DNA of 33,346 bases from Clostridia bacterium (GTDB lineage: Bacteria > Bacillota > Clostridia > Christensenellales > Aristaeellaceae). The stretch's first letter is position 1; each line of letters opens with the position of its first letter. This document shows positions 5,725 through 23,935 of the stretch, piece by piece. A program made the position numbers and the translations under genes. The notes below the pieces were generated by a model. It was given only the letters and a program-made list of their open reading frames with translations, was not told the DNA's origin and searched no databases. The stretch spans positions 1-33,346 of the forward strand of contig JAFZOG010000186.1 in NCBI GenBank assembly GCA_017550745.1, given 5' to 3'.

Positions 5725-5747
5725 CGCGCCCTGGCTGCGCCAGCCTG

Positions 5748-5783
5748 CGAATGAAAATGGAATCAGGATTCCATTTTCATTCG
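5748..5783. repeat. Palindromic intergenic repeat, copy 1
   Basis: This is a perfect 17-bp inverted repeat (5748-5764 with 5767-5783) with a 2-base loop, starting CGAATGAAAATGGAATC. A small CTGGC/GCCAG hairpin precedes it (5731-5743). A near-identical palindrome lies at 18034-18075 after the histidine kinase gene, and the bases after both copies are also similar (GGGTTTTCGACA versus GGGTTTTTCGGC). Placement just after stop codons suggests a transcript-end or mRNA-stability element, or a small non-autonomous mobile repeat. Confidence 0.8.
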
Positions 5784-5824
5784 ATGCATCCATTTCCTGC
5801 AAAAATGGGTTTTCGACATCCTGT

Positions 5825-5852
5825 GCCCCTTGCTTGCGCGAGGGGCTTTTTT
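5825..5852 (+). terminator. Rho-independent terminator after pgi
   Basis: GCCCCTTGC (5825-5833) pairs with GCGAGGGGC (5838-5846), including one T-G pair, around a 4-base loop. A run of six T follows at 5847-5852. It ends the pgi transcript ahead of the large glucan synthase gene. Confidence 0.85.
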
Positions 5853-5918
5853 CATGTGTATAAAACATATCCCTTCAGCACACAATAAAGCGATATTTTT
5901 ATGTGTTGGAGGCGAACC

Positions 5919-8900
5919 ATGCAGCAGAAAGCCGATCTTCCATCCATCACCGGGCGCGCGTATCTGCGGGGGCCCAGGGGCATGGCGCGGCGCATTATCC
6001 GGGCGGCCCAGGCTGTCCGGCGCGTGCCGCGGGAGGACGTAAGCCCGGCGGCCCGGTGGATGGAGGATCACGCCCGGCTGCTGCTGGACGCGGCGGACGC
6101 GCTGAACCGGGACCTGCGGTTTTCCCCCAAGGTGCCCGCTGTTCAGGGCACGCCTCGCATTTTGATCCTGGCAAGGCAGGCGGTGAAGGAGGAGGAGCTG
6201 GCCGCCGGGCTTGTTGTGCGCAGCATTCGGGAGGAATTGGGCGAAGAAACGCTGACCCAGGCGGAGATCGACCTGCTGCCCCAGGCAATCACCTGCGCTT
6301 TATTCGAGGAACTGAATGAGCTTCTGGATGCCTGTATCCAGGAGCCGGATCTATATGCCCAGGCCCAGGCCTGGGCCGACGCTTTGGCGAAGGGCCGGAA
6401 GGATCATCTGCCCCGGGGCCCGCTGCTGCTGGGCAGGGTGCTGCTGCGCCTGGACGAACAGGAGGACGCGGACGCCCTGCGCCGGGCGGACGAGCTGCTG
6501 GCCCGGCAGGGCATGCAAGCCGCCGACGCCCTGCAGGCCGCCCAGACCCAATGGGAACGGGACGGGCTCAAGGCCGGCCGCCTCATCGCCGCCATGCAGA
6601 AGAGCCAACGCCTGCCCTATGACCGGATGGGCGAGCGGCTCAGCCCCGTGGCCGCCGCGCTGCGGCAGGACGCCACCTACCGCCGCATGGACGCGGAAAG
6701 CCGGGCGTATTACCACCGCTGCGCCTGCCGGATTGCCAAACGCTTCCATGTTTCCGAAGGGGAAGCGGCCCAGGCCGCCGTGGAAACGGCGAAAAACCGG
6801 CTCGGCCCGGAGGGGGAGGCGGGGTATTACCTGATCGAGCGGCCGGAGCTGCTGGCTGCGGCGCTGGGAAAGAAAGCCTCCGGCTTTGCCCGGAAGCATC
6901 GGCAGGGCCTGGTTTTGCTGCCCCTGTACGCCGCCGCCGCGCTGTCGCCGGCCCTGGCAGTATGGCTTGGTCTGCCTTGGTATGTCTGGCCTTTCATCCC
7001 CCTGTGCGCTTCTGAAGTCTTTCGCATATGCTATCGCCGCCTCCTGCGGAGGATCTTCCCCGCCCGGATGGTCCCCCGCATCCATGTTGACCGCCTGACC
7101 CCGAAAACCCGCACGCTGGTGGTTGTGCCCTGCCTGCTCACTTCCCGGAAGCAGGCCATGCGCATGGCGCGGAAGCTGGCCGTCCTGCGGGCGGCGAACC
7201 CCGACCCCAACCTGGAATACATGCTGCTTTGCGATTTCGCGGACAGCGCCGAGGAAACGGATCCTGCCGATGACGACATCCTGCTGGCCGCCCGCCTCAG
7301 CATCGAGGCGCTGAACCGGCAGCAGGGCGGCGGCTTTTTGTACCTGCACCGCGCCCGGAAGTGGGACATGGGCCAGCGGAAATACACGGGCCGGGAGCGC
7401 AAGCGGGGAGCCCTGGAAGCGCTGAACCGGCTGATCACGGAGGGAGCCTGCCGGGATTCCTTCGCCTATATGTCCGTCAGCGAAAAGGAGCTGCATTGCC
7501 GCTATGCCTACGTAATCACCCTGGACGCGGACACCTTCCTGCCCCCGGGGACCGCCTGCAGGCTGGCAGGGGCCATGCTCCATCCCCTGCAAAAGGGCCG
7601 CACGGCGGTGATCCAGCCCCGGATGGCGGTGCGCCCGGACAGCGTGCGCACCCGCGTCCAAAAGCTGCTGGGAGGCACAGGCGGGGCCGACCCCTATCAC
7701 CTGGCGGTCCAGGACGTGTATCAGGACGTGTTCGGGAAGGGCTCCTTCGTGGGCAAAGGGATCTACGACCCTACGCTGTGGCTGCGGGCGCTGGAAGGCC
7801 GCCTGCCCGCCGGGCGGCTGCTGAGCCACGACCTGATGGAAGGCGAAATCGCGGGCAGCGTCCTGGCGGACGACCTGGTGCTCTATGACAGCCACCCCGC
7901 CGCCCTCTCCGGCTGGCAGAAACGCCTGCACCGCTGGACGCGGGGGGACTGGCAGCTGCTTCCCTTCCTAAAGGATACGCGGCTTTCCTGGCTGTCCCGG
8001 CACAAGATTTGGGACAACCTGCGGCGTTCCCTGGCCCCCGCCGCCCAGACCGTCCTGCTGCTGCTGGGGGCGGGGCTGAACCGGCCCTTCCTGTTCCTGC
8101 TGGCGCTGCCCTGGCCCCTGCGCGGCATGGGGCAGCGGGTGCTTTTGCTGCCCGGCAAGGCCCAGACCTGCCTGGACGCCGCTGCCCGCGCCCTGTGGCG
8201 GCAGTTTGTGAGCCATCGCCATCTGCTTTCCTGGGTGACGGCGGCCCAGGCGGAGGAGGCCGGGCCCCTCCCCTTTTCCTGCCTGCTGGCCCAATTGGCC
8301 GCGGGGGCGGGGATGCTGCTGCTTTCCCTGCGGCCCGGCGGGTTCACGGCGGCAGCAGCCCTGGGCGCGGGCTGGATGGCGGGGCCGCTGCTCCTGCGCT
8401 TTTTGGACGCCCCCGCAAACCGCCCCCGGCCCATGACCCCGGCCCAGCGGGAAACCGTGCGCCTAACAGCCCGGGCCACCTGGCGGTTCTTTGAAGACAC
8501 GGTGAGCGCCGCCACGCTTTTCCTGCCCCCGGACAATGTGCAGACCGACCCGGACAGGGGCCCGGCCCTGCGCACCTCGCCCACCAACATCGGCCTGTAC
8601 CTGCTCTCCTGCTGCGCGGCCCGGGAGCTGAGCTTCATCACCTCCGCCGAAATGGGCAGACGCCTTGGGGAAACGCTGGATACGCTGGAAAAGCTGGAAA
8701 CCTGGCAGGGGCACTTTTACAACTGGTACGGCCTGACAGCCGGGGAAGTCCTCTCTCCCCGCTTCGTATCCACCGTGGACAGCGGCAATCTGGCCGCCTG
8801 TCTGCTTTGCTGCGCCCAGCTCTGCCGCAACCACCTGGAAGAAATGCCCAAGGAAGGGGCCCATCTTCCCGCCCGGCTGGACGCCCTGGCCCGCCGGGCT

Positions 8901-11900
8901 GATTTCCGTGCCCTGTACGACGAAAGGAACGGGCTGTTCTTCATCGGCTGGGACGCGGAGGAAAACCGCCCCACCGCCGCCCATTACGACACCCTGGCCA
9001 GCGAAGCGCGGCTCACCTCCTACCTGGCCATCATGCTGGGCCAGGTGAAGCGCAGGCACTGGGCGCGCCTGAACCGAAGCGTCACCCGGGCGGGGGGCGG
9101 CCCGGCACTGCTCTCCTGGGGCGGTACCCTGTTTGAATACCTGATGCCCAGCCTGCTTTTGCCCCTCACCCCCGGCACGCTGCTGGGGGAAAGCGCCCTG
9201 AACGCCGTGCGCGCCCAGATGGGCCGCCGCCCGGAGCGGCCCTTCGGCGTCAGCGAAAGCGGCTGCGCCGCCTTTGACCCGGACATGAATTACCAGTACC
9301 AGGCCTTCGGCCTGCCCGCCCTGGCCCGCAATCCGGAAACCACGGACCAGGTGGCGGCGCCTTACGCCTCCATGCTGGCCCTGCCCTTCTTCCCCCGGGC
9401 GGCGGCGGAAAACCTGGAGCGGATGCAGAAGCTGGGCTGGGCGGACAAACACGGCCTGTTCGAGGCGGCGGATTACACGCCGCAGCGGATCGGCCCGACG
9501 CCCCGCGTCGTGAAAAGCCACATGGCCCACCACCAGGGGATGATCCTGTGCGCCCTGTGCAACGCCCTGCGGGACAACGTGCTGGTGAGGGCCTTCATGA
9601 CCCCGCCGGAAGCCAGGGCCCAGAGCGGCCTGCTGTTGGAAGCCGCGCCCCGCCATGCCGCCCGGCGGCGGGAATTCCCCGCCCCCCGGCAGGAAGAAAA
9701 AGCCGCCGCCGCCTTCCGCCGTGCCGCCCGGCCCGGCCTGCCCGTGGACGCCCACGTCCTCTTTGGCGCGGGCACCTCCTGGGTGCTGACCGCCCGCGGG
9801 CAGGGGACGCTCGCCCACCGCGGGATGCAGGCCACCCGCTTTGACCCCGAGGCCGGGGCCCAGACCGGGCCCCAGTTCTACGTCAAGGACGGAAGCACCG
9901 GGAAGTTCATCCGCCCCGCCGTGGCGGGAAACGCGGTGTTCGAGGGCGGCACGGTCCGGTACCAGGCGGTATGGGAGGGCTTGCAGCTGACACTGTGCTG
10001 CTGCGTCGATCCCCTGACCGGCGCGGCGGTGGCGGCGCTGCAGGCGGAAAACCCCGGCCCCGGGGAGCGCAGGATCGAAGCGGTATCCTTCCTGGAAATC
10101 GCCCAGGGCTTCCAGGCCGACGACGAATCCCACCCCAATTTCCGGGACCTGTCTGTGCGGGTTTCTCCCTGGGGAGACCACGGGCTTCTTTCGGAGCGCC
10201 TGCCCCGGGACGAAAAAGACAGGATGCCCCCCATCCTCCATGCCGCCGCGGGGGACGGGCTGGTGATCAGGCGGCAGGGGGACCGGGGGCTGTTTCTGGG
10301 CCGCCTGGGAACCTATGCCCGGCCGGCCCAGCTCCTCGAGGAAGACCCCCCTTGCCGCGCCGGGGACGTGATCTCCCCCTGCTGCTCCCTCACCGTCAGC
10401 CTCCGCGTCGCCGCCCGCAAAAAGAGCGCGGTGTATTTCGTGACCGCTTTTTCGGATGCGAAAGAAAAGCCGGAGGAAGCGGCCTGCTCCGTTTCCCGGG
10501 CCAAGGCCGCCTTTTCCCTGGCCGCCGCCCAAAACCTGATGACCGCCCGGATGCTGCGCCTGGACGCTCCTGCCCAGGCCCTGTACCAGCAGATGCTGGG
10601 GGCCCTGCTCTTTACCGGCCAGCCCCACCAGCAGGCTTTTCCCCCCGCCCCCCGCAGCGTCCTCTGGCGCTGGGGCGTGTCCGGCAATCTGCCTGTGCTT
10701 TTGGTGCGGGTGGAGGAAGACGCGGGGCAGGCCGTCATCCGCCACGCGCTGCGCTGCCACGCCTGGCTGCGGATGCGGGGCGTGGCCTTTGACCTGTTGT
10801 TCTTCTGCCCGGAGGAAAAGGAATACGCCCGGCCCTGCCGGGACCGGGTGGCGCGATGCCTGCAGCTGAGCCGGGAAACGCTGGGCGCTCCCGGCGGCGT
10901 GCACCTGGCCTCCGGCACGGAAACGGAAGCCCTGGCCCTGGAAACGGCCGCCCGGCTGACCCTGCGCAGCGGCCGGGGCCTGCGGGAGCAGCTGAACGCT
11001 TTGAAGCTCAGGCTGCCGGACAGCGGGGAAAAAGCGCCGAGCCTTCCCGACCCCGTGCTGCCGGGCAGGCTGACCGCGGACAACGGCTTTGGCGGCTGCA
11101 CCCACGACGGGGCTTACTGCGTCCATGCCCCCGCGCCCGTGCCCTGGCACATGCTGCTCTGCGGGCAGCGCTTCGGCACGGTGGTGTGCGAAACGGGCAT
11201 CCTTTCTTCCTTTGCGGAGAACAGCCGCCTGGGACGCATCACCCGGGCCGTGCCCGACGTGTACCGGGGCGTGCCCAGCGAGGAAATCTACCTGACGGAC
11301 GAAGAAGGCCGGGTGTGGCCCCTGGCCCGGTGCGCGGCGGTGTACGAGCCCGGCATGGCCGTCTATCACGGCATGGCGGGGGACATCCTCTGCCGCACCG
11401 AGGTGTTTTCCCACATAGAAAACCCCCTGGGCATCCGGACGGTGACGCTGCGATGCGAAAAGGAGCGGCAGGTCAGGCTGTATTGGGTGCTGCGCTTTGC
11501 CCTGGGGGAGCGCCCCGAAACCACCCGCTGCCTGGCAGGCGGCCCTATGGCATCCGCCTTCAGCGGCGATTTTCCCGGCGCGGCCTGGGCGGGGATGGAG
11601 GGCGGCCAGGCCCAGGCCCTCTGCCCCGCCTCCTGCTTCGGGATGGCGGGGGAGGCCGTGCCCCCGGCTTTGCTGGGCAGCGTGCCGGGGGTCGGCAGCG
11701 CGGCGCTGCTTCGCGCGGACCTCACGCTGGCGCCCCGGGAACCAAAGCGGGTCACCCTGGCCCTGGGCCATGCCGCCTGCGCGGACAGCGGGAAGGAAGC
11801 CTTTGGCGCCCTCCTTCGGCAGGGCCCCGCCGACGCGGCCCGGGCCGTGCGTTCCTTCTGGAGCGGGCGGCTTTCCAGGCTTTTGCTGTTCTCCTTTGAC

Positions 11901-13304
11901 GACGTGCTGGGCCGCGCGATGAACCGGTGGCTGCCCTACCAGGTGACGGCGTCCCGGCTCATGGGCCGCACGGGGCCGTATCAGGCGGGCGGGGCCTTCG
12001 GCTTCCGCGACCAGCTGCAGGACTGCCTGGCCCTGCTGTACACGGACCCGGCCTTTGTCCGGCGGCACATCCTCCTGTGCGCCGGGCACCAGTACAAGGA
12101 AGGCGACGCGCAGCACTGGTGGCACCCGCCCCTGCGCGGCGTGCGCACCCGCGTCAGCGACGATAAGCTGTTTTTGCCGTACCTGACGGCGAAATATATC
12201 GAAGCGGCGGGGGATGAAAGCATCCTGGCCGAAGAGATCCCCTACCTGGAATCCCCGCCCCTGACCGAAGGGGAAGATGACCGCTACGAGGAACCCGCCA
12301 CCACCTCCTGGACGGAGCCCCTGCTTTCCCACTGCCTGCGGGCCATCGACGCCGTGGGCTTCGGAGCGCACGGCCTGCCCCTCATGGGCGGCGGCGACTG
12401 GAACGACGGCATGAACCGGGTGGGCGGGGAAAGCGTGTGGCTGGCCTTCTTCCTCGCGCTGGTCCTGCAAGCTTTCGCGCCTTATTGTCCAGCGGAAACA
12501 AAAGAAAAATACCGGGCACTGCGGCGGCGGATCCTGGACAATGCGGAAAGCGCCTGGACGGGGCAGTGGTATCTCCGCGCCTGGTACTCGGGCGGCGCGC
12601 CGCTGGCCGGCCCGGACACGGCCCCGCCCCGCATCGACCTCATCACCCAATGCTTCGCCGTGCTGGGCGGCGCGCCCAGGCACCACGCCCGGGCCGCCCT
12701 GGCGGCGGCAGTGGACCGGCTGTACTGCCGGCAGGCGGGCATCGTGAAGCTGCTGGACCCGCCCTTCACCCCGGAGGAAAACGCGGGCTACATCGGCGCG
12801 TACCTGCCGGGCGTGCGTGAAAACGGCGGGCAGTACACCCACGCCGCGCCCTGGCTCATCCTGGCCCTGTGCCGTGTGGGGGAAAACGCCCTGGCCTGGG
12901 AAATCGCCCGGGCCCTCCTGCCTGAACGCCGGGCGGACACGAAAGAAAAGGCCCTCATCTACAGGGCCGAGCCCTATGTGCTCTGCGGCGACGTCTACGC
13001 GGGGGAGAACCTGGGCCGCGGCGGCTGGAGCTGGTACACCGGCAGCGCCGCCTGGCTGTACTGGGTGATCCTCACCGAGCTTTTGGGCTTTGAAAAGCGC
13101 GGGGACAGGGCCCGGCTGCATCCCCTCCGGGAGGAGGGCATGGACTCCTTTACCCTCATCTACCGCTTCGGCACCGCGAATTACCATTTCACCGCCGCGC
13201 CGGACTGCCTCTTCCCTGCCCTGGACGGCGTGAAATCCGATGACGGCTGGGTGGCCCTCGTTTCGGACGGCAAAACCCATGAGGCAAGGTTCCCCCTGCG
13301 CTGA
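5919..13304 (+). CDS. Cyclic beta-1,2-glucan synthase-like enzyme (GT84 plus GH94-type domains)
   Basis: This membrane protein of about 2461 residues has the architecture of cyclic beta-1,2-glucan synthases (NdvB/Cgs/ChvB). Hydrophobic helices occur near 330-370, 705-745 and 785-830. Between the first two sits the GT84 glycosyltransferase, with RTLVVVPCLLTS near 390, the LDADT motif near 535 and an RLHRWTRGDWQ segment near 675. The middle region (about 840-1240, with SPTNIGLYLLSC and KSHMAHHQGM) corresponds to the domain that in Cgs performs ring closure. The rest resembles GH94 phosphorylases, with two sugar-phosphorylase sandwich-like parts and a GGDWNDGMN motif near 2158 that carries the conserved acidic residue. 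In known enzymes UDP-glucose is polymerised, the phosphorylase part trims chains and the middle domain cyclises them. ATG 5919 has GGAGG at 5908-5912; ATG 5901 would include that site in the coding region. No transporter or modification gene adjoins it. A linear-glucan product is an alternative. Confidence 0.9.
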   Translation: MQQKADLPSITGRAYLRGPRGMARRIIRAAQAVRRVPREDVSPAARWMEDHARLLLDAADALNRDLRFSPKVPAVQGTPRILILARQAVKEEELAAGLVVRSIREELGEETLTQAEIDLLPQAITCALFEELNELLDACIQEPDLYAQAQAWADALAKGRKDHLPRGPLLLGRVLLRLDEQEDADALRRADELLARQGMQAADALQAAQTQWERDGLKAGRLIAAMQKSQRLPYDRMGERLSPVAAALRQDATYRRMDAESRAYYHRCACRIAKRFHVSEGEAAQAAVETAKNRLGPEGEAGYYLIERPELLAAALGKKASGFARKHRQGLVLLPLYAAAALSPALAVWLGLPWYVWPFIPLCASEVFRICYRRLLRRIFPARMVPRIHVDRLTPKTRTLVVVPCLLTSRKQAMRMARKLAVLRAANPDPNLEYMLLCDFADSAEETDPADDDILLAARLSIEALNRQQGGGFLYLHRARKWDMGQRKYTGRERKRGALEALNRLITEGACRDSFAYMSVSEKELHCRYAYVITLDADTFLPPGTACRLAGAMLHPLQKGRTAVIQPRMAVRPDSVRTRVQKLLGGTGGADPYHLAVQDVYQDVFGKGSFVGKGIYDPTLWLRALEGRLPAGRLLSHDLMEGEIAGSVLADDLVLYDSHPAALSGWQKRLHRWTRGDWQLLPFLKDTRLSWLSRHKIWDNLRRSLAPAAQTVLLLLGAGLNRPFLFLLALPWPLRGMGQRVLLLPGKAQTCLDAAARALWRQFVSHRHLLSWVTAAQAEEAGPLPFSCLLAQLAAGAGMLLLSLRPGGFTAAAALGAGWMAGPLLLRFLDAPANRPRPMTPAQRETVRLTARATWRFFEDTVSAATLFLPPDNVQTDPDRGPALRTSPTNIGLYLLSCCAARELSFITSAEMGRRLGETLDTLEKLETWQGHFYNWYGLTAGEVLSPRFVSTVDSGNLAACLLCCAQLCRNHLEEMPKEGAHLPARLDALARRADFRALYDERNGLFFIGWDAEENRPTAAHYDTLASEARLTSYLAIMLGQVKRRHWARLNRSVTRAGGGPALLSWGGTLFEYLMPSLLLPLTPGTLLGESALNAVRAQMGRRPERPFGVSESGCAAFDPDMNYQYQAFGLPALARNPETTDQVAAPYASMLALPFFPRAAAENLERMQKLGWADKHGLFEAADYTPQRIGPTPRVVKSHMAHHQGMILCALCNALRDNVLVRAFMTPPEARAQSGLLLEAAPRHAARRREFPAPRQEEKAAAAFRRAARPGLPVDAHVLFGAGTSWVLTARGQGTLAHRGMQATRFDPEAGAQTGPQFYVKDGSTGKFIRPAVAGNAVFEGGTVRYQAVWEGLQLTLCCCVDPLTGAAVAALQAENPGPGERRIEAVSFLEIAQGFQADDESHPNFRDLSVRVSPWGDHGLLSERLPRDEKDRMPPILHAAAGDGLVIRRQGDRGLFLGRLGTYARPAQLLEEDPPCRAGDVISPCCSLTVSLRVAARKKSAVYFVTAFSDAKEKPEEAACSVSRAKAAFSLAAAQNLMTARMLRLDAPAQALYQQMLGALLFTGQPHQQAFPPAPRSVLWRWGVSGNLPVLLVRVEEDAGQAVIRHALRCHAWLRMRGVAFDLLFFCPEEKEYARPCRDRVARCLQLSRETLGAPGGVHLASGTETEALALETAARLTLRSGRGLREQLNALKLRLPDSGEKAPSLPDPVLPGRLTADNGFGGCTHDGAYCVHAPAPVPWHMLLCGQRFGTVVCETGILSSFAENSRLGRITRAVPDVYRGVPSEEIYLTDEEGRVWPLARCAAVYEPGMAVYHGMAGDILCRTEVFSHIENPLGIRTVTLRCEKERQVRLYWVLRFALGERPETTRCLAGGPMASAFSGDFPGAAWAGMEGGQAQALCPASCFGMAGEAVPPALLGSVPGVGSAALLRADLTLAPREPKRVTLALGHAACADSGKEAFGALLRQGPADAARAVRSFWSGRLSRLLLFSFDDVLGRAMNRWLPYQVTASRLMGRTGPYQAGGAFGFRDQLQDCLALLYTDPAFVRRHILLCAGHQYKEGDAQHWWHPPLRGVRTRVSDDKLFLPYLTAKYIEAAGDESILAEEIPYLESPPLTEGEDDRYEEPATTSWTEPLLSHCLRAIDAVGFGAHGLPLMGGGDWNDGMNRVGGESVWLAFFLALVLQAFAPYCPAETKEKYRALRRRILDNAESAWTGQWYLRAWYSGGAPLAGPDTAPPRIDLITQCFAVLGGAPRHHARAALAAAVDRLYCRQAGIVKLLDPPFTPEENAGYIGAYLPGVRENGGQYTHAAPWLILALCRVGENALAWEIARALLPERRADTKEKALIYRAEPYVLCGDVYAGENLGRGGWSWYTGSAAWLYWVILTELLGFEKRGDRARLHPLREEGMDSFTLIYRFGTANYHFTAAPDCLFPALDGVKSDDGWVALVSDGKTHEARFPLR

Positions 13305-16007: not shown

Positions 16008-16028
16008 GGCCTTTTCGACGATCTGTGT

Positions 16029-16060
16029 TTAAGACTGTCCTAAGGCTCCTGTGCTATTTC
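16029..16060 (+). promoter_or_regulatory. Direct-repeat response-regulator site and weak promoter before the regulator gene
   Basis: TTAAG (16029-16033) and CTAAG (16040-16044) are spaced 11 bases start to start, the helical period typical of OmpR-family sites. The 17-base block TTAAGACTGTCCTAAGG recurs before the VTC operon at 18139-18155 with two differences. Nine bases after the block lies a poor -10 candidate, TATTTC (16055-16060), with no good -35, as expected for an activated promoter. Autoregulation by the adjacent response regulator is inferred. Confidence 0.6.
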
Positions 16061-16098
16061 ATTCCATGAATCCATCAAACAGTAAGGCGGGAGGCAGC

Positions 16099-16773
16099 AT
16101 GCACATTCTTCTGGCAGAGGACGAACAGGCGATGGCCGAGGCGATCGCCGCTTTTCTGCAATATCACCAATACACCGTGGACTGGGTGGACAACGGCACG
16201 GACGCCTATGACCAGGCCAGCCGCATCCCCTACGACGGGCTGATTTTAGACATCATGATGCCGGGCATGGACGGCCTTTCTGTGCTGAGCCGCCTGCGCC
16301 GGGACGGGAAAACCGTGCCCGTGCTGCTCCTGACCGCCAAGGGGGAGGTGGAGCACCGGATCGCGGGCTTCGAGCAGGGGGCGGACGACTACCTGCCCAA
16401 GCCCTTTGACATGACCGAGCTGCTGATGCGCGTAAAGGCCATGCTGCGGCGGCGCGACGCTTACCATTCCGACCTGCTGACCCTGGGGGATATGACGCTG
16501 GATCAAAGCAGGTGCCTGCTGTCCGTGGGTTCGGCCTCCGCTTCCCTGAGCCGGCGGGAATACCAGCTGATGGAATTTCTGATGAACAATCCCGGCATCT
16601 ACTTCTCCGCCGACACGCTGCTGGACCGGGTGTGGGGCATGGACGCCATCATCGAGCAGGGCACGGTGTGGGTGCATATCTCCTACCTGCGCAAGAAAAT
16701 GGCAGCCCTGGGCGCCCACGCGGTGATCCAGTCCAAGCGCGGCATCGGCTACGCGCTGGAGGAGACCCCATGA
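16099..16773 (+). CDS. OmpR-family response regulator
   Basis: This 224-residue regulator has an N-terminal receiver domain (acidic pair EDE at 7-9, phosphoacceptor Asp51 in LILDIMMPGMDG, Thr in LLTAK, Lys in PKPFD). A C-terminal winged-helix DNA-binding domain (LSRREYQLMEFL, VHISYLRKK, IQSKRGIGYAL) follows. It would be phosphorylated by the kinase encoded next to it and bind tandem half-sites. ATG 16099 is chosen because GGGAGG (16089-16094) is just upstream; an in-frame ATG at 16051 has no ribosome site and would lie at or before the transcript start. The stop overlaps the kinase start as ATGA. The likely targets are its own promoter and the VTC-DUF4956-CotH operon, which share a near-identical direct repeat. 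Confidence 0.93.
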   Translation: MHILLAEDEQAMAEAIAAFLQYHQYTVDWVDNGTDAYDQASRIPYDGLILDIMMPGMDGLSVLSRLRRDGKTVPVLLLTAKGEVEHRIAGFEQGADDYLPKPFDMTELLMRVKAMLRRRDAYHSDLLTLGDMTLDQSRCLLSVGSASASLSRREYQLMEFLMNNPGIYFSADTLLDRVWGMDAIIEQGTVWVHISYLRKKMAALGAHAVIQSKRGIGYALEETP

Positions 16774-18002
16774 AGCGATACTACCGCAGGCGCATCATCG
16801 CCTCCGCCATGATGGCGTTCCTGATCCTGCTGTTCGTCGTCATCGGGGGCATCCTGCTGTTCAGCTTTCTGCAGAGCGAACGCACCACCGACCAGACGGT
16901 GCAGCTTCTTCTGTCGCCCCCGGCGGCAGAGCAGCGGCCCTTCGGCGGCCGGGACTTTCCGGGCTTTATGGACAGCGCGCCGGGCCAGACGCCCCTCCTT
17001 TCCGCCTTCTATGAAATCGAGACCGACGCGGAGGGAAAGATCCTGCGGGCAGAGCTGCGGGGCTTTTCGGAGGATACGGACGCCGACATGCAGTCCTACG
17101 TGGACCGGATCTTTGCCCGGGGGAAGGACAGCGGCAAGCTGGACGCCTTTAAGTACGGCCGGGCGCAGGAAGAAAACGGCAATTACCGGGTGATCCTGGT
17201 GAACATCTCCATTCAGCTGGGCATGCTGTACGCCATGCTCAGAAGCGCCCTGATCATCGGCGCGGGGCTGTCGGTGCTGCTGCTGATCATCCTGCTGCCT
17301 GTGTCCTCCAAGGCGGCGGCGCTGATCCTGCAAAACATGGAAAAGCAAAAGCAGTTCATCACCGACGCGGGGCACGAGCTGAAAACCCCCGTGGCCGTCA
17401 TCCGCTCCAACCTGGACGTGATGGAGCTGCTGGACGGCAAGACCAAATGGAGCGGCAACATCCGCAGCCAGGTGGACCGGCTGGAGGGGCTGGTGAAGCA
17501 GCTGCTTCTTTTGGCCCGGCTGGACGAAAAGCAGTGGACGGGGAAGACCGAAATCATCGACCTGACCCATCTGCTGAAGGATGAAATGGATATCTACCGG
17601 GACGAGGCGGCGCAGCGGGAGCTGAAATTCTCCGCCGACATCGCGTCCGGCCTGCGGGTGACCGGCGACAGGGCCGCCCTGAGCCAGATGGTGCACGCCG
17701 TGATGGACAACGCCATGCAGTATACCCCCTCCGGCGGCAACGTGTGGGTGAAATGCGTCCGGGAGAAAAAGCAGCTCCGCTTTGACATTACCAACACCGT
17801 GGACACACTGCCCCAGATCCCCGCCGACCGCCTCACCGACCGCTTCACCCGCGGCGATACCGCCCGCTCCCGCAAGACCGGCGGCACCGGCATCGGCCTT
17901 TCCACCGCCAAGAGCGTGGCCGAAATGTGCCACGGCTCCATCGAAATCAAATACCTCACCGACACCATGTTTGAGGCGGTGATCCTGCTGCCCGCCGCGT
18001 GA
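16770..18002 (+). CDS. Sensor histidine kinase of the two-component system
   Basis: This 410-residue membrane kinase starts at the ATG overlapping the regulator stop, with GGAGGAG at 16758-16764. Transmembrane segments lie at about 9-33 and 149-175 and bracket an extracytosolic sensor region of about 115 residues with no recognised fold. The H-box is FITDAGHELKTPVAVIRSNL (phosphoacceptor His202). The ATPase domain shows the N-box MDNAMQYTP and the glycine box GGTGIGLSTAKSV. The F-box segment DRFTRGDTAR is also present. It is an HisKA-HATPase kinase of the EnvZ/VanS class. The signal is unknown; the neighbouring VTC/CotH operon suggests a surface or envelope cue. Palindromic repeat DNA follows the stop codon. 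Confidence 0.93.
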   Translation: MKRYYRRRIIASAMMAFLILLFVVIGGILLFSFLQSERTTDQTVQLLLSPPAAEQRPFGGRDFPGFMDSAPGQTPLLSAFYEIETDAEGKILRAELRGFSEDTDADMQSYVDRIFARGKDSGKLDAFKYGRAQEENGNYRVILVNISIQLGMLYAMLRSALIIGAGLSVLLLIILLPVSSKAAALILQNMEKQKQFITDAGHELKTPVAVIRSNLDVMELLDGKTKWSGNIRSQVDRLEGLVKQLLLLARLDEKQWTGKTEIIDLTHLLKDEMDIYRDEAAQRELKFSADIASGLRVTGDRAALSQMVHAVMDNAMQYTPSGGNVWVKCVREKKQLRFDITNTVDTLPQIPADRLTDRFTRGDTARSRKTGGTGIGLSTAKSVAEMCHGSIEIKYLTDTMFEAVILLPAA

Positions 18003-18009
18003 CAGAGGC

Positions 18010-18075
18010 TGTCGAAAAAGTATTTTCGACACCCTTCGAATGAAAATGGAATCGGGATTCCTTTTTCATTCGAAG
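18010..18075. repeat. Palindromic intergenic repeat, copy 2, with a preceding hairpin
   Basis: A 9-bp hairpin, TGTCGAAAA (18010-18018) with TTTTCGACA (18023-18031), is followed by an inverted repeat of about 20 bp (18034-18053 with 18056-18075) with one mismatch. The second palindrome matches the one at 5748-5783. It starts 8 bases after the kinase stop and lies between the two-component genes and the VTC operon promoter, so it could separate the two transcripts. Confidence 0.8.
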
Positions 18076-18138
18076 CTTCCAAAGGGTTTTTCGGCAATCT
18101 GAAATGTGCTGAAAAACTCTTTTATTTTTTTGCCGATC

Positions 18139-18170
18139 TTAAGACTCTCATAAGGAAGGCCCTTTACAAT
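18139..18170 (+). promoter_or_regulatory. Direct-repeat operator and promoter of the VTC-DUF4956-CotH operon
   Basis: TTAAG (18139-18143) and ATAAG (18150-18154) form an 11-base-period direct repeat within a 17-base block that matches 16029-16045 at 15 positions. TACAAT (18165-18170), a good -10, begins nine bases after the block, and the expected -35 position has no consensus match. The arrangement fits activation by the OmpR-type regulator encoded upstream. The transcript would start near 18177. Confidence 0.65.
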
Positions 18171-18206: not shown

Positions 18207-18878
18207 ATGGATTATCGGCATGAAATCAAGCACTACATCACGGCGGCGGACGCCACGGCCATCCGGCAGAACCTGTCCGCAGTGGCTTCCATCGACGTCC
18301 ACGCGCAGAAGGAAGGGTGCTACCGGATCCGCAGCCTGTACTTTGACGATCTGAACAACACCGCCCTGTGGGAAAAGCTGGACGGGGTGAACGAGCGGCG
18401 CAAGTTCCGCATCCGGTATTACAACGACGACCTGTCCTACATCATGCTGGAATGCAAGGTGAAGCGGGACAACGTGGGCTGCAAGCTCCAGGAAAGGCTG
18501 ACGGAGGATGAGCTCCGCCGCATCATGGCGGGGGACATCGGCTGGCTGGTCTCCAGCGGGCGGCCGCTGCTGGCAGTGCTGTATGTGGAGATGAAGACAA
18601 AGGGCTTAAAGCCCAAATGCGTGGTGGAATACATGCGCGTGCCCTTCGTGTACGGCCCGGGCAACGTGCGCGTGACCATCGACTGGAACATCCGCACCGG
18701 CCCCCCCGGGCAGTTCATGGATCCCAAGGGCCTGACGCTGCCGGTGGAAAACAATCCCATGCTGCTGGAAGTCAAGTGGGACGAATACCTGCCGGGCATC
18801 ATCCGCCGGGCCACCGCGCTGAAAAGCCGCGGCCCCACCGCGTTTTCCAAGTACGCCGCGTGCAGGGTGTACGGGTAA
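18207..18878 (+). CDS. VTC-domain protein (polyphosphate polymerase-like)
   Basis: This 223-residue cytosolic protein has the VTC/CYTH-like tunnel fold. It carries the opening YRHEIKHYI, RSLYFDD, RRKFRIRYY, LECKVK, VEMKTK, CVVEYMR and the closing LLEVKWDEYLP. These alternating Lys/Arg and Glu residues line the nucleotide and polyphosphate tunnel in the yeast Vtc4 family, which makes polyphosphate from ATP. Bacterial members are mostly uncharacterised. It is first in a three-gene operon with DUF4956 and CotH, a recurrent bacterial grouping. GGAAGGAGAG at 18184-18193 lies 13 bases from the ATG, slightly long. Enzyme activity is inferred from the fold, and the protein could also be a nucleotide or phosphate sensor. 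Confidence 0.88.
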   Translation: MDYRHEIKHYITAADATAIRQNLSAVASIDVHAQKEGCYRIRSLYFDDLNNTALWEKLDGVNERRKFRIRYYNDDLSYIMLECKVKRDNVGCKLQERLTEDELRRIMAGDIGWLVSSGRPLLAVLYVEMKTKGLKPKCVVEYMRVPFVYGPGNVRVTIDWNIRTGPPGQFMDPKGLTLPVENNPMLLEVKWDEYLPGIIRRATALKSRGPTAFSKYAACRVYG

Positions 18879-18925: not shown

Positions 18926-19597
18926 ATGACTTTTAACGATATTTTCAAGTCCAGCTACCTGGAGAATGTGACCGCCGTTTCCCTGCCCGATATGGCGCTG
19001 GCCCTGGCGCTGAGCTTCTGCCTGGGGCTGTTCATTTACTTCGTGTACAAAAAGACCTACTCCGGCGTCATGTTCAGCCGCACCTTCGGCGGCTCCCTGG
19101 TGGCCATGACGATGATCACCACCATGGTCATCCTGGCCGTCACCTCCAACGTGGTTTTGTCCCTGGGCATGGTGGGCGCCCTGTCCATCGTGCGTTTCCG
19201 CACCGCCATCAAGGAGCCCATGGACATCGCCTTCCTCTTCTGGGCCATCGCGGGCGGCATCGTGCTGGCGGCGGGCATGCTTCCCCTGGCCATCGTGGGC
19301 AGCATCATCATCGGCCTGATCATGATCGTGTTCTGCAACCGGAAAACCGTTGAAAAGCCCTTCATCGCCGTCATCACCTGCGAGAACGCCGAAGCTGAAA
19401 ACAAGGTGACCCAGTACCTGAACAGCCAGGTGAAAAAGGCCGTCGTGAAGAGCAAGAGCGCCCAGAAGGGCAACATCGAGCTGAGCTACGAGGTTTCCCT
19501 CAAGAGCGACGACACCGGCTTCATCACCAATCTGTCCGATATGGAAGGCGTGGGCAGCGCCGTGCTGGTGAGCTATAACGGCGATTACATGGGGTGA
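18926..19597 (+). CDS. DUF4956 integral membrane protein
   Basis: This 223-residue protein has about four hydrophobic segments in residues 25-140. The hallmark stretch GALSIVRFRTAIKEPMDIAF lies between helices 2 and 3. A soluble C-terminal domain of about 75 residues (ENAEAENKVTQYL ... MEGVGSAVLVSYNGDYMG) resembles a small alpha/beta ferredoxin-like fold, as in MgtC-type membrane proteins. Function is unknown. Its constant company with VTC and CotH genes suggests a membrane channel or scaffold for the same process. ATG 18926 has GGAGG at 18913-18917; an upstream TTG at 18911 would place that site inside the gene. The stop touches the next start (TGATG). Confidence 0.88.
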   Translation: MTFNDIFKSSYLENVTAVSLPDMALALALSFCLGLFIYFVYKKTYSGVMFSRTFGGSLVAMTMITTMVILAVTSNVVLSLGMVGALSIVRFRTAIKEPMDIAFLFWAIAGGIVLAAGMLPLAIVGSIIIGLIMIVFCNRKTVEKPFIAVITCENAEAENKVTQYLNSQVKKAVVKSKSAQKGNIELSYEVSLKSDDTGFITNLSDMEGVGSAVLVSYNGDYMG

Positions 19598-21897
19598 TGG
19601 ACATGCTGAAAAGCAAAGCCATTGACCGGATCGGGTGCATCGCCCTGGCCGTGATGCTGGCGCTGACCTGCGTCGTTTGGGCGGGCAAAGCCTCCGCCGG
19701 CAGGCAGACCACCGTGACCGTGGGGTATGAAGGGCTGTTTGACCAGAGCTATGTGCATACCATCGACATCGAGATGGACGACTGGGACACCTTCATCGCC
19801 AACGCCACTCAGGAAGCCTACACCGAATGCAACGTGACCATCGACGGGGAAAAGATCTCCAACGTGGGCATCCGCGGCAAGGGCAACACGTCCCTTTCCT
19901 CCGTGTCCTCCATGGGCAGCCAGAAGTATTCCTTCAAGATCGAGTTCAACCAGTACGTGAAGGGCAAGACCTATAAGGGCCTGGATAAGCTGAGCCTGAA
20001 CAACCTGATCTACGACAGCACCATGATGAAGGACTACCTGGCTTACACCCTGATGGCCCGGGCAGGCGTGCCCTCGCCCCTGTGCAGCTACATCCAGGTC
20101 ACCGTCAACGGCGAGCCCTGGGGCCTGTACCTGGCGGTGGAAGGCGTGGAAGACGGCTTCATGGAGCGCAACAACATGACCACCGGCGAGCTGTATAAAC
20201 CCGACAGCATGAGCTTCGGCGGCGGCCGCGGCAACGGGCGCGACTTTGACTTTGACCAGTTCCGCGTGAAAGAGGACGAGGACGAAGCCGGTTCTGAATC
20301 CACGGAAACCGGCGGCGGGGAAACCGCGGCGCAGCAGCCCCAAACCCAGCAGGATGATTTCGGCGGTTCCTCCGGCGCTTCCTTCGGCGGGCAGATGCCC
20401 GAAGGGTTCTCCATGCCCGAAGGGATGACCGTGCCGGAGAACGGGCAGGGCTTCTCCATGCCCGAGGGCATGACCTTGCCGGAAGGCTTCCAGGCCCCGG
20501 AGAGCACGGAAGAAACAGCCGACTCTTCTGACCGGCGCGGCCCCGGCGGATTCGAAATGCCCACCAATATGAACTTCAATATCGGCGGCGGCATGTTCAA
20601 CTTCGGCATGGGCAGCAGCGACGTGAAGCTGCAATACATCGACGACGATCCGGACAGCTATTCCAATATCTTCAACAACGCCAAGACGGACGTGAGCAAG
20701 CGGGACAAGGCCCGCCTGATCGAAACCCTGAAAACCCTGAACAGCGACAGCGCCCAGGACGCCGTATATACCGATGAGGTGATCTCCTATCTGGCGGTGC
20801 ATGACTTCCTCCAGAACGGCGACAGCTACACCGGCATGATGGTGCACAACTACTATCTCTATGAGGAAGACGGCAAGCTGGCCATCATCCCCTGGGACTA
20901 CAACCTGGCCTTTGGCGGCATGAGCGGGGCAGACGCCTCCTCCACCGTCAACAGCCCCATCGACAACCCGGTCAGCAACGGAACCGGCACCGACCGGCCC
21001 CTCATCAGCTGGATCCTGACGGATGAGGAAGCATTGGAGAAATACCACGCGGTCTACAGCCAGTTCATCGCGGACACGGTGGAAAGCGGCTGGCTGGCCG
21101 GCGAAATCACCCGGGTTTCCGAAATGATCCGTTCCTATGTGGAAGCGGACGAAAACAGCTTCTACACCGTGGAAGAATTTGACACGGGCATTGAAAACCT
21201 GCAGGCGTACTGCGCGCTGCGCGGCGAAAGCGTGCGCGGCCAGCTGGAGGGAACCATTCCTTCCACTTCCAGCGGGCAGAGGGCCGATTCCTCCGCGCTG
21301 GTCGACCCGGGCGACCTGAGCATCAGCGCCATGGGCTCCATGAACAGCGGCAATGGCGGCGGCGGCTTTGGCGGAGGCGGCTTCGGCGGCGGAATGCCGT
21401 CCATGCCCAGCGGCGGCTTCTCCATGCCCTCCGGCACCCAGATGCCCACGCAGGGCGGCACGGAAGGGCAGACCTCTGAGAATCCCTTCGGCGGCAGCGA
21501 CGGCGGGCAGTCCAGCGGCGCTCCCGCCGCCCAGCAGGATACAGCTGCCGGAGCAGACGGCCAATTCCCCGGCAGCCAGGGAAGCCCGGCAGGAACCGAA
21601 GAGCAAGGAAAGACAACGGATGCCCAGGCAGAGACAGGGGAAACCGTGACGCAGACAGCGGAAACCGAAAGCCAGGCGGAGCCCGCCGAAACGGAAGACC
21701 CGGCGAAATCCGGGGACGCGCGGACGGATTCCGGAAGAAGCCGCGGCGGTTTCAATCGGGAAGACTTCAACTTTGACCCCAATTTCCAGGCATCCCAAGC
21801 CAACAGCGGCATGTCCTGGGTCACCTTCGGCATCTATGCCGCCGCGCTGATCCTGGCCATCCTCCTGGTGGCCCGGGCGCCGGGGAAAGAAAACTGA
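19597..21897 (+). CDS. CotH-family kinase-like protein with split domain and C-terminal membrane helix
   Basis: This protein has about 766 residues. An N-terminal signal anchor (about 11-32) precedes a CotH domain in two parts. Part one (about 45-210) has VGIRGKGNTSL, KYSFKIEFN, LDKLSLNN and GLYLAVEGVEDGF. Part two (about 345-480) has LQYIDDDP, FLQNGDSYTGMMVHNYYLY and IPWDYNLAFGG (Asp about 434, the metal/catalytic position). Between them lies an acidic, Gln-rich insert with repeated MPEG(F/M) units. The C-terminal region is Gly/Ser/Pro-rich (GGGFGGG, MPSMPSGG), then Glu/Thr-rich, ending in a transmembrane helix (about 738-760) and a short basic tail. Spore-coat CotH of Bacillus is a protein kinase. 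This version is predicted on the outer face and could modify surface proteins or its own tails. ATG 19597 overlaps the preceding stop; ATG 19603 is possible. Confidence 0.9.
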   Translation: MDMLKSKAIDRIGCIALAVMLALTCVVWAGKASAGRQTTVTVGYEGLFDQSYVHTIDIEMDDWDTFIANATQEAYTECNVTIDGEKISNVGIRGKGNTSLSSVSSMGSQKYSFKIEFNQYVKGKTYKGLDKLSLNNLIYDSTMMKDYLAYTLMARAGVPSPLCSYIQVTVNGEPWGLYLAVEGVEDGFMERNNMTTGELYKPDSMSFGGGRGNGRDFDFDQFRVKEDEDEAGSESTETGGGETAAQQPQTQQDDFGGSSGASFGGQMPEGFSMPEGMTVPENGQGFSMPEGMTLPEGFQAPESTEETADSSDRRGPGGFEMPTNMNFNIGGGMFNFGMGSSDVKLQYIDDDPDSYSNIFNNAKTDVSKRDKARLIETLKTLNSDSAQDAVYTDEVISYLAVHDFLQNGDSYTGMMVHNYYLYEEDGKLAIIPWDYNLAFGGMSGADASSTVNSPIDNPVSNGTGTDRPLISWILTDEEALEKYHAVYSQFIADTVESGWLAGEITRVSEMIRSYVEADENSFYTVEEFDTGIENLQAYCALRGESVRGQLEGTIPSTSSGQRADSSALVDPGDLSISAMGSMNSGNGGGGFGGGGFGGGMPSMPSGGFSMPSGTQMPTQGGTEGQTSENPFGGSDGGQSSGAPAAQQDTAAGADGQFPGSQGSPAGTEEQGKTTDAQAETGETVTQTAETESQAEPAETEDPAKSGDARTDSGRSRGGFNREDFNFDPNFQASQANSGMSWVTFGIYAAALILAILLVARAPGKEN

Positions 21898-23167: not shown

Positions 23168-23935
23168 TCATAGGCGGACGCCGATCATCTCCGCAAAGCA
23201 TCTGTTCAGGGCGGACCAGTCCGGGTTCCTGTCGTCGGGTAAGGAGCGGCTGATGGTTCTCTGGTTTTCCAGCTCCGTTTGGATGAAATCCCTTACGGCG
23301 GGGATGTGGGGGAGGTATTCTCCCTCGGTGGTGGCCTTCTTCTTCTCCAGCAGCTCGCCGATGGCGGCCCGGAGGGCGGGGGCCATGTCCATTTTCAGCA
23401 GGTCGTCAAACAGCACGGGGGGCGGGCAGTGGTACCGCTCGATGTACTGCGCGGCAAGCAGCGGGCGCAGGGCGTAGAAATACTTCTTGTACCGCACGGT
23501 GTCCTGGGTCAGGTGATCCGCCCAGGTGTTCATGGCGATGCCGAAATAGTGGTGCACCGCGGATTTTTCCGAAAAGTAACCGTTGGCCACCTTGCGGACG
23601 GTGTCCCATTCAGGGGTGGTGCGGTACACCACGGGGGAGCCGCTCCACTCGTAGAGCGTGGCGTTTCCCCGGCCAAACTGCTTCATGGCCTTGCGCAGGT
23701 CCCAGCCGTTGATATCCAGCACCTCGTCCAGCTGCCATTCGATCACGTCCCGGGGCTCGTCCAGGCGCAGGTAGTCCGCCCTGGGCATCACGTACACGAA
23801 CCGCACGTCATAATCGCTGTCCGGGGAGGCAAAGCCCCAGGCGCGGCTGCCCGACTCCACGGCGTGCAGCACCCGCGCCCCGTATTTTTCCTCGATCTTT
23901 TTCAGTTCTTCCAGGATGATTTCTTTCATATTCAT
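23168..23935 (-). CDS. Predicted nucleotidyltransferase (YcgL/COG3541-like), second of a pair
   Basis: This 255-residue protein has a polymerase-beta-type nucleotidyltransferase core near the N-terminus: ESGSRAWGFASPDSDYDVRF, a GS...S-D-x-D motif with two metal-binding acidic residues. The downstream acidic strand WQLDEVLDI may supply the third. The rest is helical. Related proteins are annotated only as predicted nucleotidyltransferases and occur in bacteria and phages. Substrates are unknown; nucleotide transfer to RNA, protein or a small molecule is possible. ATG 23935 overlaps the upstream stop by four bases, so the pair is translationally coupled. An alternative ATG lies two codons downstream at 23929. 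It is not a close copy of its partner, since only the core motif is shared. Confidence 0.85.
   Translation of the reverse strand: MNMKEIILEELKKIEEKYGARVLHAVESGSRAWGFASPDSDYDVRFVYVMPRADYLRLDEPRDVIEWQLDEVLDINGWDLRKAMKQFGRGNATLYEWSGSPVVYRTTPEWDTVRKVANGYFSEKSAVHHYFGIAMNTWADHLTQDTVRYKKYFYALRPLLAAQYIERYHCPPPVLFDDLLKMDMAPALRAAIGELLEKKKATTEGEYLPHIPAVRDFIQTELENQRTISRSLPDDRNPDWSALNRCFAEMIGVRL

Follow-up and report, generated by a model that had tools for sequence, protein, structure and literature searches.

Excerpts from the published accounts describe several response regulators that bind direct repeats of the type considered here. The box of CiaR reads NTTAAG-N5-TTTAAG, with TATAAT 10 bases beyond the last TTTAAG, and the recognition helix of this protein is VVEVYVSKVRKKL (PMC3091779). 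The PmrA box is TTTAAG-N5-TTTAAG in Acinetobacter and consists of YTTAAK repeats in Salmonella, with CTTAAT and CCTAAG as the half-sites in Klebsiella (PMC10927774). The CiaR-like BAS0540 binds its own promoter, as well as that of an RND-efflux MFP gene, at boxes of the same type (PMC4938410). In C. difficile, the OmpR-family regulator RR_1586 binds a TTAAG direct repeat of period 11, with its own locus as a putative target; reporter assays on two promoters that carry TTAAG repeats show repression by it, and at most of the sites tested its binding was lost on phosphorylation (PMC6222199). Both the box and the mechanism discussed below are already known. CmrR of C. difficile was rejected as a model, since its site, in the part of the description available, is an inverted repeat.

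The window, i.e., the whole stretch of 33,346 nucleotides that was analysed, belongs to a draft metagenome assembly of 3.75 Mb in 186 contigs, 88.8% complete and 7.45% contaminated. A domain search agrees with the gene content given in the preliminary description, namely an OmpR-type regulator and a histidine kinase, forming a two-component system (TCS), followed by VTC, DUF4956, and CotH genes. The features of this locus are as follows.

16028..16045, + strand: candidate operator box of the regulator promoter, TTTAAG-ACTGT-CCTAAG-G (pattern match, shuffles, orthologue conservation)
16055..16060, + strand: weak -10-like hexamer of the regulator promoter, TATTTC, 9 bases after the box
16099..16773, + strand: OmpR/PhoB-family response regulator with recognition helix TVWVHISYLRKKM (domain search)
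16770..18002, + strand: sensor histidine kinase (HisKA, HATPase_c) with two membrane passes by eye (domain search)
18006..18081, no strand: copy of a dispersed palindromic repeat, in the gap that separates TCS and operon (genome search)
18081..18131, + strand: hairpin with U tract resembling an intrinsic terminator, ahead of the operon and behind the TCS (sequence)
18138..18155, + strand: candidate operator box of the VTC operon, CTTAAG-ACTCT-CATAAG-G (pattern match, shuffles)
18165..18170, + strand: -10 hexamer of the VTC promoter, TACAAT, 9 bases after the box
18207..18878, + strand: VTC-domain protein, polyphosphate-polymerase-like (domain search)
18926..19597, + strand: DUF4956 membrane protein (domain search)
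19597..21897, + strand: CotH kinase-family protein (domain search)

The response regulator consists of a receiver domain (PF00072, 104.2 bits) and a winged-helix Trans_reg_C domain (PF00486, 73.4 bits), both over the cut-off, which places it in the OmpR/PhoB family. The VTC domain scores 114.3 bits (PF09359, cut-off 23) and the CotH domain 188.8 bits (PF08757, cut-off 23.8). Many Arg, Lys, and Glu columns are invariant in the VTC alignment, and a comparison of the VTC protein with PDB sequences gave no match at 1e-3. The DUF4956 protein bears a weak resemblance to MgtC/SapB (24.8 bits, far below the cut-off of 214). In the alignment of 18 DUF4956 sequences, columns 71–106, around SNVVLSLGMVGALSIVRFRTAIKEP, are invariant almost without interruption, which suggests a conserved membrane site. 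Since the hairpin and U tract separate the TCS from the operon, the latter probably needs a promoter of its own. The palindromic repeat that precedes the hairpin is ~76 bases long; at E < 1e-17, 18 places of the genome match it, the window included, and a partial copy lies at 5738–5792. Elsewhere in the window, a 2467-residue protein with GH94, glucoamylase, and DUF3131 domains is encoded at 5901–13304, which we take to resemble cyclic beta-1,2-glucan synthase, and a gene of the RlaP family (RNA repair pathway DNA polymerase beta family) lies on the minus strand at 23171–23935. No pel gene was found among nine further window proteins that were scanned.

The two 17-base blocks on the + strand, TTAAGACTGTCCTAAGG at 16029–16045 and TTAAGACTCTCATAAGG at 18139–18155, were compared directly and, as had been claimed for them, are identical at 15 positions, with half-sites 11 bases apart in both. 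Extended one base further to the left, they read TTTAAGACTGTCCTAAGG (16028–16045) and CTTAAGACTCTCATAAGG (18138–18155), and each agrees with YTTAAG-N5-YTTAAGG at 12 of 13 positions, the final G counted. It had also been claimed that both blocks end nine bases before a -10 hexamer; this holds well on the VTC side, where TACAAT shares five of six bases with TATAAT, whereas on the regulator side the hexamer is weak because TATTTC shares only three, although TG and one further base precede it. With the period-11 direct repeat and the fixed distance to the -10 (the regulator one being weak), the two candidate sites are, by their letters, PmrA/CiaR-type boxes, YTTAAG-N5-YTTAAGG, positioned 9 bases before the -10. 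The statement of the preliminary description that OmpR-family regulators bind such repeats is likewise borne out, the published PmrA and CiaR boxes being of the same type.

A pattern merged from both 17-mers, searched with up to three mismatches, matches only these two places in the window, whereas shuffled versions of the window gave a mean of 0.05 matches and reached two in none of 100 trials. On the scale of the genome, the scans are noisy. The same pattern and threshold give six matches in the window genome, compared to 49 for the backward pattern; the general box, with at most one mismatch, gives 11 compared to 21 in this genome alone, and 50 compared to 171 in nine genomes, i.e., no enrichment. 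The case thus rests on the position of the boxes and not on their number. That the two sites merely represent a chance resemblance of promoter-like AT-rich stretches would accord with this noise and with the weak -10 of the regulator; the shuffles, as well as the specificity for period 11 and the conservation before orthologues described below, count against it, the latter two largely contradicting it, so that we regard it as extremely improbable. A third site of the merged pattern, with at most one mismatch, is found at C26:5773–5789 (ATTTAG-N5-CATAAG), 9 bases before TAAAAT, and precedes a nitroreductase-family gene starting at 5827. Another, with two mismatches (C35:10645), was taken as chance, as it precedes an ETF-alpha gene and has no -10 at the right distance.

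The spacing was analysed in 126 stretches comprising 1.53 Mb, 24 of which had been chosen on account of box matches; among the 49 distinct sites of at least 12/13 in this sample, 23 have a TATAAT match of at least 4/6 at a gap of exactly 9 bases, and the next most frequent gap has 10 sites. A second analysis assumed no TTAAG and relied on 124 distinct VTC modules from genomes of the family and order, the window, and 80 named loci (the best 80 of 577). In the 121 modules whose upstream region spans 150 bases or more, the search was for a direct repeat of hexamers alike at five or more of six positions, with a -10 of at least 4/6 lying 9 or 10 bases further on. Such an arrangement with period 11 precedes 60 of the 121 modules, whereas the other periods from 7 to 20 gave 5–15, and dinucleotide shuffles gave a mean of 9.8 and a maximum of 17. 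Among control upstream regions, taken from the remaining genes of these loci, 36 of 296 carry it and period 11 does not stand out (period 12 gave 47); the difference from the VTC modules corresponds to p = 4e-15, relatedness being ignored. At period 11, the single gaps of 9 and 10 bases gave 47 and 48 modules, gaps of 8 and 11 gave 41 and 39, and the other gaps from 3 to 19 gave 20–34; the peak around gaps 9 and 10 is therefore real but broad. The period-11 repeat is present in 24 of the 28 modules that have a regulator within 2.6 kb, compared to 36 of the 93 others.

Conservation at the regulator gene was evaluated in the 308 genomes of the family, 23 of which, the window genome included, hold an orthologue of the kinase (E <= 1e-60). 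The preliminary description had staked its proposal on the block being conserved upstream of orthologues, and this conservation was found: a box of at least 11/13 lies within 250 bases upstream of 13 of the 23 orthologous regulator genes. For six of the other ten, a linked run or a divergent promoter holds either the box or the gene itself. G307 carries VTC-DUF4956-CotH-regulator-kinase in one run, with an 11/13 box at -167 of the VTC gene, and in G066 the order is DUF4956-CotH-regulator-kinase at a contig end, where the box could not be seen because the contig ends before VTC. In G218, VTC and the regulator are divergent, and an 11/13 box is located at the VTC promoter. As far as the genes of these runs were scanned, which was done in part, boxes of 12/13 head runs whose first genes are HlyD or ABC and which continue into the regulator and kinase (G030, G116) or precede a divergent run including ABC and HlyD genes (G217). 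In the remaining four (G129, G243, G215, and G087), no box was found in any linked place.

The block is conserved on the VTC side as well. By hand count, a box of at least 11/13 precedes VTC in all four genomes with a VTC at least 70% identical and an orthologue of the kinase, compared to two of the 12 genomes with such a VTC but no kinase orthologue (p = 0.008), the absence of the latter being uncertain because the genomes are incomplete. The two exceptions are G028 (13/13, the VTC match being partial) and G193 (11/13, in the TTTTAG variant); the VTC of G193 is 81% identical and has this variant box, and that of G180 is 85% identical and has none. In G025 and G006, which belong to the same genus, 12/13 boxes are found at -64 before VTC, and the TCS orthologues (regulator 73%, kinase 57% identical) are located on other contigs behind 11/13 boxes of their own. 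In G051, a member of another family, boxes precede both VTC (12/13) and a 42% identical regulator (13/13). Within 160 bases of VTC, only 16 of the named loci (80, the best of 577) have the TTAAG form at 11/13 or better. Together with the published box type of OmpR-family regulators, the conservation before orthologues supports the candidate regulon proposed earlier, and the VTC-DUF4956-CotH operon is probably controlled by the adjoining TCS or a close relative of it.

The same box type recurs in other surroundings, divergent VTC-DUF4956 pairs among them. The window genome has two further VTC-DUF4956 pairs (L281, G000:C7:91128; L050, G000:C75:44897), the former behind a 13/13 box that is followed by TATAAT after 9 bases. 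In G025, G006, and G003 (L273, L274, and L275), one box heads a run of a divergent, short regulator (~200 residues), a kinase, and VTC, which in G025 and G006 also includes DUF4956. A gene for a phosphodiester glycosidase (NAGPA) is located directly behind the box at L131, L276, and L286, and in G034 and G030 this gene is the first of a run with VTC, DUF4956, the regulator, and the kinase among its members. Boxes also precede HlyD/ABC genes and other ABC transporters. In 2.0 million positions of loci selected for VTC or TCS genes, the window left out, there are 22 sites of at least 12/13, eight at regulator promoters with four overlapping extra matches there, five at VTC promoters, three at transporter runs linked to a regulator and kinase, and two elsewhere. 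Matches in G030 (two kinases and one VTC, L061 and L276) and in G209:C88 (one VTC) read across in-frame TAG codons.

Such a distribution bears on the question of which regulator would occupy the boxes. Eight OmpR-type regulators of the window genome, the window regulator included, match at E <= 1e-30, and any of the seven others could share the specificity of the window regulator, in which case the neighbouring TCS would not be the chief controller. The perfect box at C7:91128, the perfect VTC box of G028 with no close regulator orthologue, and RR_1586, which according to the available part of its description also binds a period-11 TTAAG repeat (PMC6222199), are all consistent with this explanation. 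It is nevertheless unlikely, since the box is kept before 13 of 23 orthologues of the window regulator itself, and since the two window boxes, 15/17 alike, share only 9–12 of 17 positions with nine other boxes of the genome, although some of these reach 14–15/17 among themselves.

The preferred reading, to which we assign a probability of roughly 0.8, is class II activation by a phosphorylated dimer of the window regulator, both of its own gene and of the VTC-DUF4956-CotH operon; binding, dependence on phosphorylation, and activation are what we infer. The kinase would phosphorylate the regulator, two molecules of which would then occupy the 11-base direct repeat at the -35 position in head-to-tail orientation and bring RNA polymerase to the -10 that lies nine bases further on. 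The regulator would thereby activate its own gene, whereas the operon would be activated from a separate promoter beyond the terminator. The window regulator might instead use the same boxes as repressor sites, relieved on phosphorylation, as the reporter and binding results excerpted for RR_1586 would allow (PMC6222199). However, the box occupies the -35 place, 9 bases from the -10, as at the CiaR-activated promoters in the published excerpt, and no TTGACA match is found 17 bases before either -10, where the box reads AGACTC or AGACTG; repression is therefore decidedly unlikely. The operon would be one of several outputs of an envelope-type response, which would extend to HlyD/ABC (MacAB-like) and other ABC transporters in relatives. 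By analogy, the operon is probably part of such a response, a role that we propose because CiaR, PmrA, and the efflux target of BAS0540 serve as precedents.

At least 28 of the 124 VTC modules, a lower bound because of contig ends, have an OmpR-type regulator within 2.6 kb, on the same strand, divergent, or downstream. These regulators do not form one clade: with a fragment (L321) dropped, the tree requires nine changes of the VTC-neighbour label, of which the well supported branches (27 of 57 rows) make at least seven unavoidable. The label is still more clustered than in 500 shuffles (mean of 19.3 changes), and several branches are long. Where the helix is VEVYVGFLRKKL or nearly so (a class that includes VEAYVGF and VEVYIGF), the first half-site has TTCAG in 11 of 11 cases and both halves have it in ten. 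With the helix VW--IS--RKK, the fourth base of the half-site is A (TAAG type) in five of seven cases, C in L333, and T in L335. The classes were drawn post hoc with the boxes already seen, cover 18 of 28 related rows, and rely on boxes picked with a pattern favouring A or C at the fourth base; the relatedness of the rows makes the p value obtained for them indicative only. The rows left unclassed are L241, L246, L247, L250, L265, L269, L321, L326 (VW with Gly, TTTCAG/TTTGAG), L368 (an unrelated helix, TTTCAG), and L369. Judged from these classes, and post hoc, helix type tracks the half-site, TTAAG or TTCAG. We can tentatively speculate, while considering it somewhat doubtful, that VTC-DUF4956(-CotH) modules across Clostridia are envelope-stress effectors, i.e., a surface polyphosphate or phosphorylation system, repeatedly captured by PmrA/CiaR-like TCSs, with helix and half-site (TTAAG, TTCAG, TTTAG) changing together.

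In the literature searched, neither the TCS-VTC-DUF4956-CotH regulon nor its recurrence was found, and no paper joined DUF4956 with a VTC domain and CotH, or polyphosphate polymerase with CotH and a response regulator. Little physiology has so far been assigned to DUF4956, which three papers of the literature searched name, and to bacterial VTC proteins, and the conserved candidate operator ties them to the box type of regulators, such as PmrA, that handle antimicrobial peptides and envelope stress. The signal that switches on the box, once found, would make the role of the operon assayable. Additionally, the pairs of helix and half-site represent a natural set for reading the DNA specificity of the OmpR family.

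Among the known systems, RR_1586 differs in its putative targets, which in the part of the account available are sporulation, germination, signalling, and hypothetical genes, and in its reporters, which show repression (PMC6222199). The Gram-positive pel clusters contain a similar accessory set, named poly-phosphate polymerase, CotH, and DUF4956, and the NELoc-2 locus of C. perfringens contains one described as VTC and CotH; neither excerpt mentions a TCS or an operator in connection with them. In comparison with PmrAB (BasRS), the window regulator scores 143.5 bits, far below the cut-off of 330 for the NCBIfam PmrA equivalog, and the kinase 91.6 bits against a cut-off of 314 for PmrB. We know of no case in which a VTC-DUF4956-CotH operon is a PmrA target. 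The Klebsiella half-site CCTAAG, as excerpted, is nevertheless the exact second half of the window regulator box. For CiaR and BAS0540, the available parts of the published descriptions name no VTC-DUF4956-CotH target, and the CiaR helix VVEVYVSKVRKKL, the printed helix being all of CiaR that was compared, agrees with TVWVHISYLRKKM at 6 of 13 positions by eye. In turn, CiaRH of streptococci, as excerpted, is like the window in both the direct repeat and the distance to the -10, and the binding of BAS0540 to its own promoter and to an efflux promoter resembles the predicted autoregulation of the window type and its HlyD/ABC neighbours.
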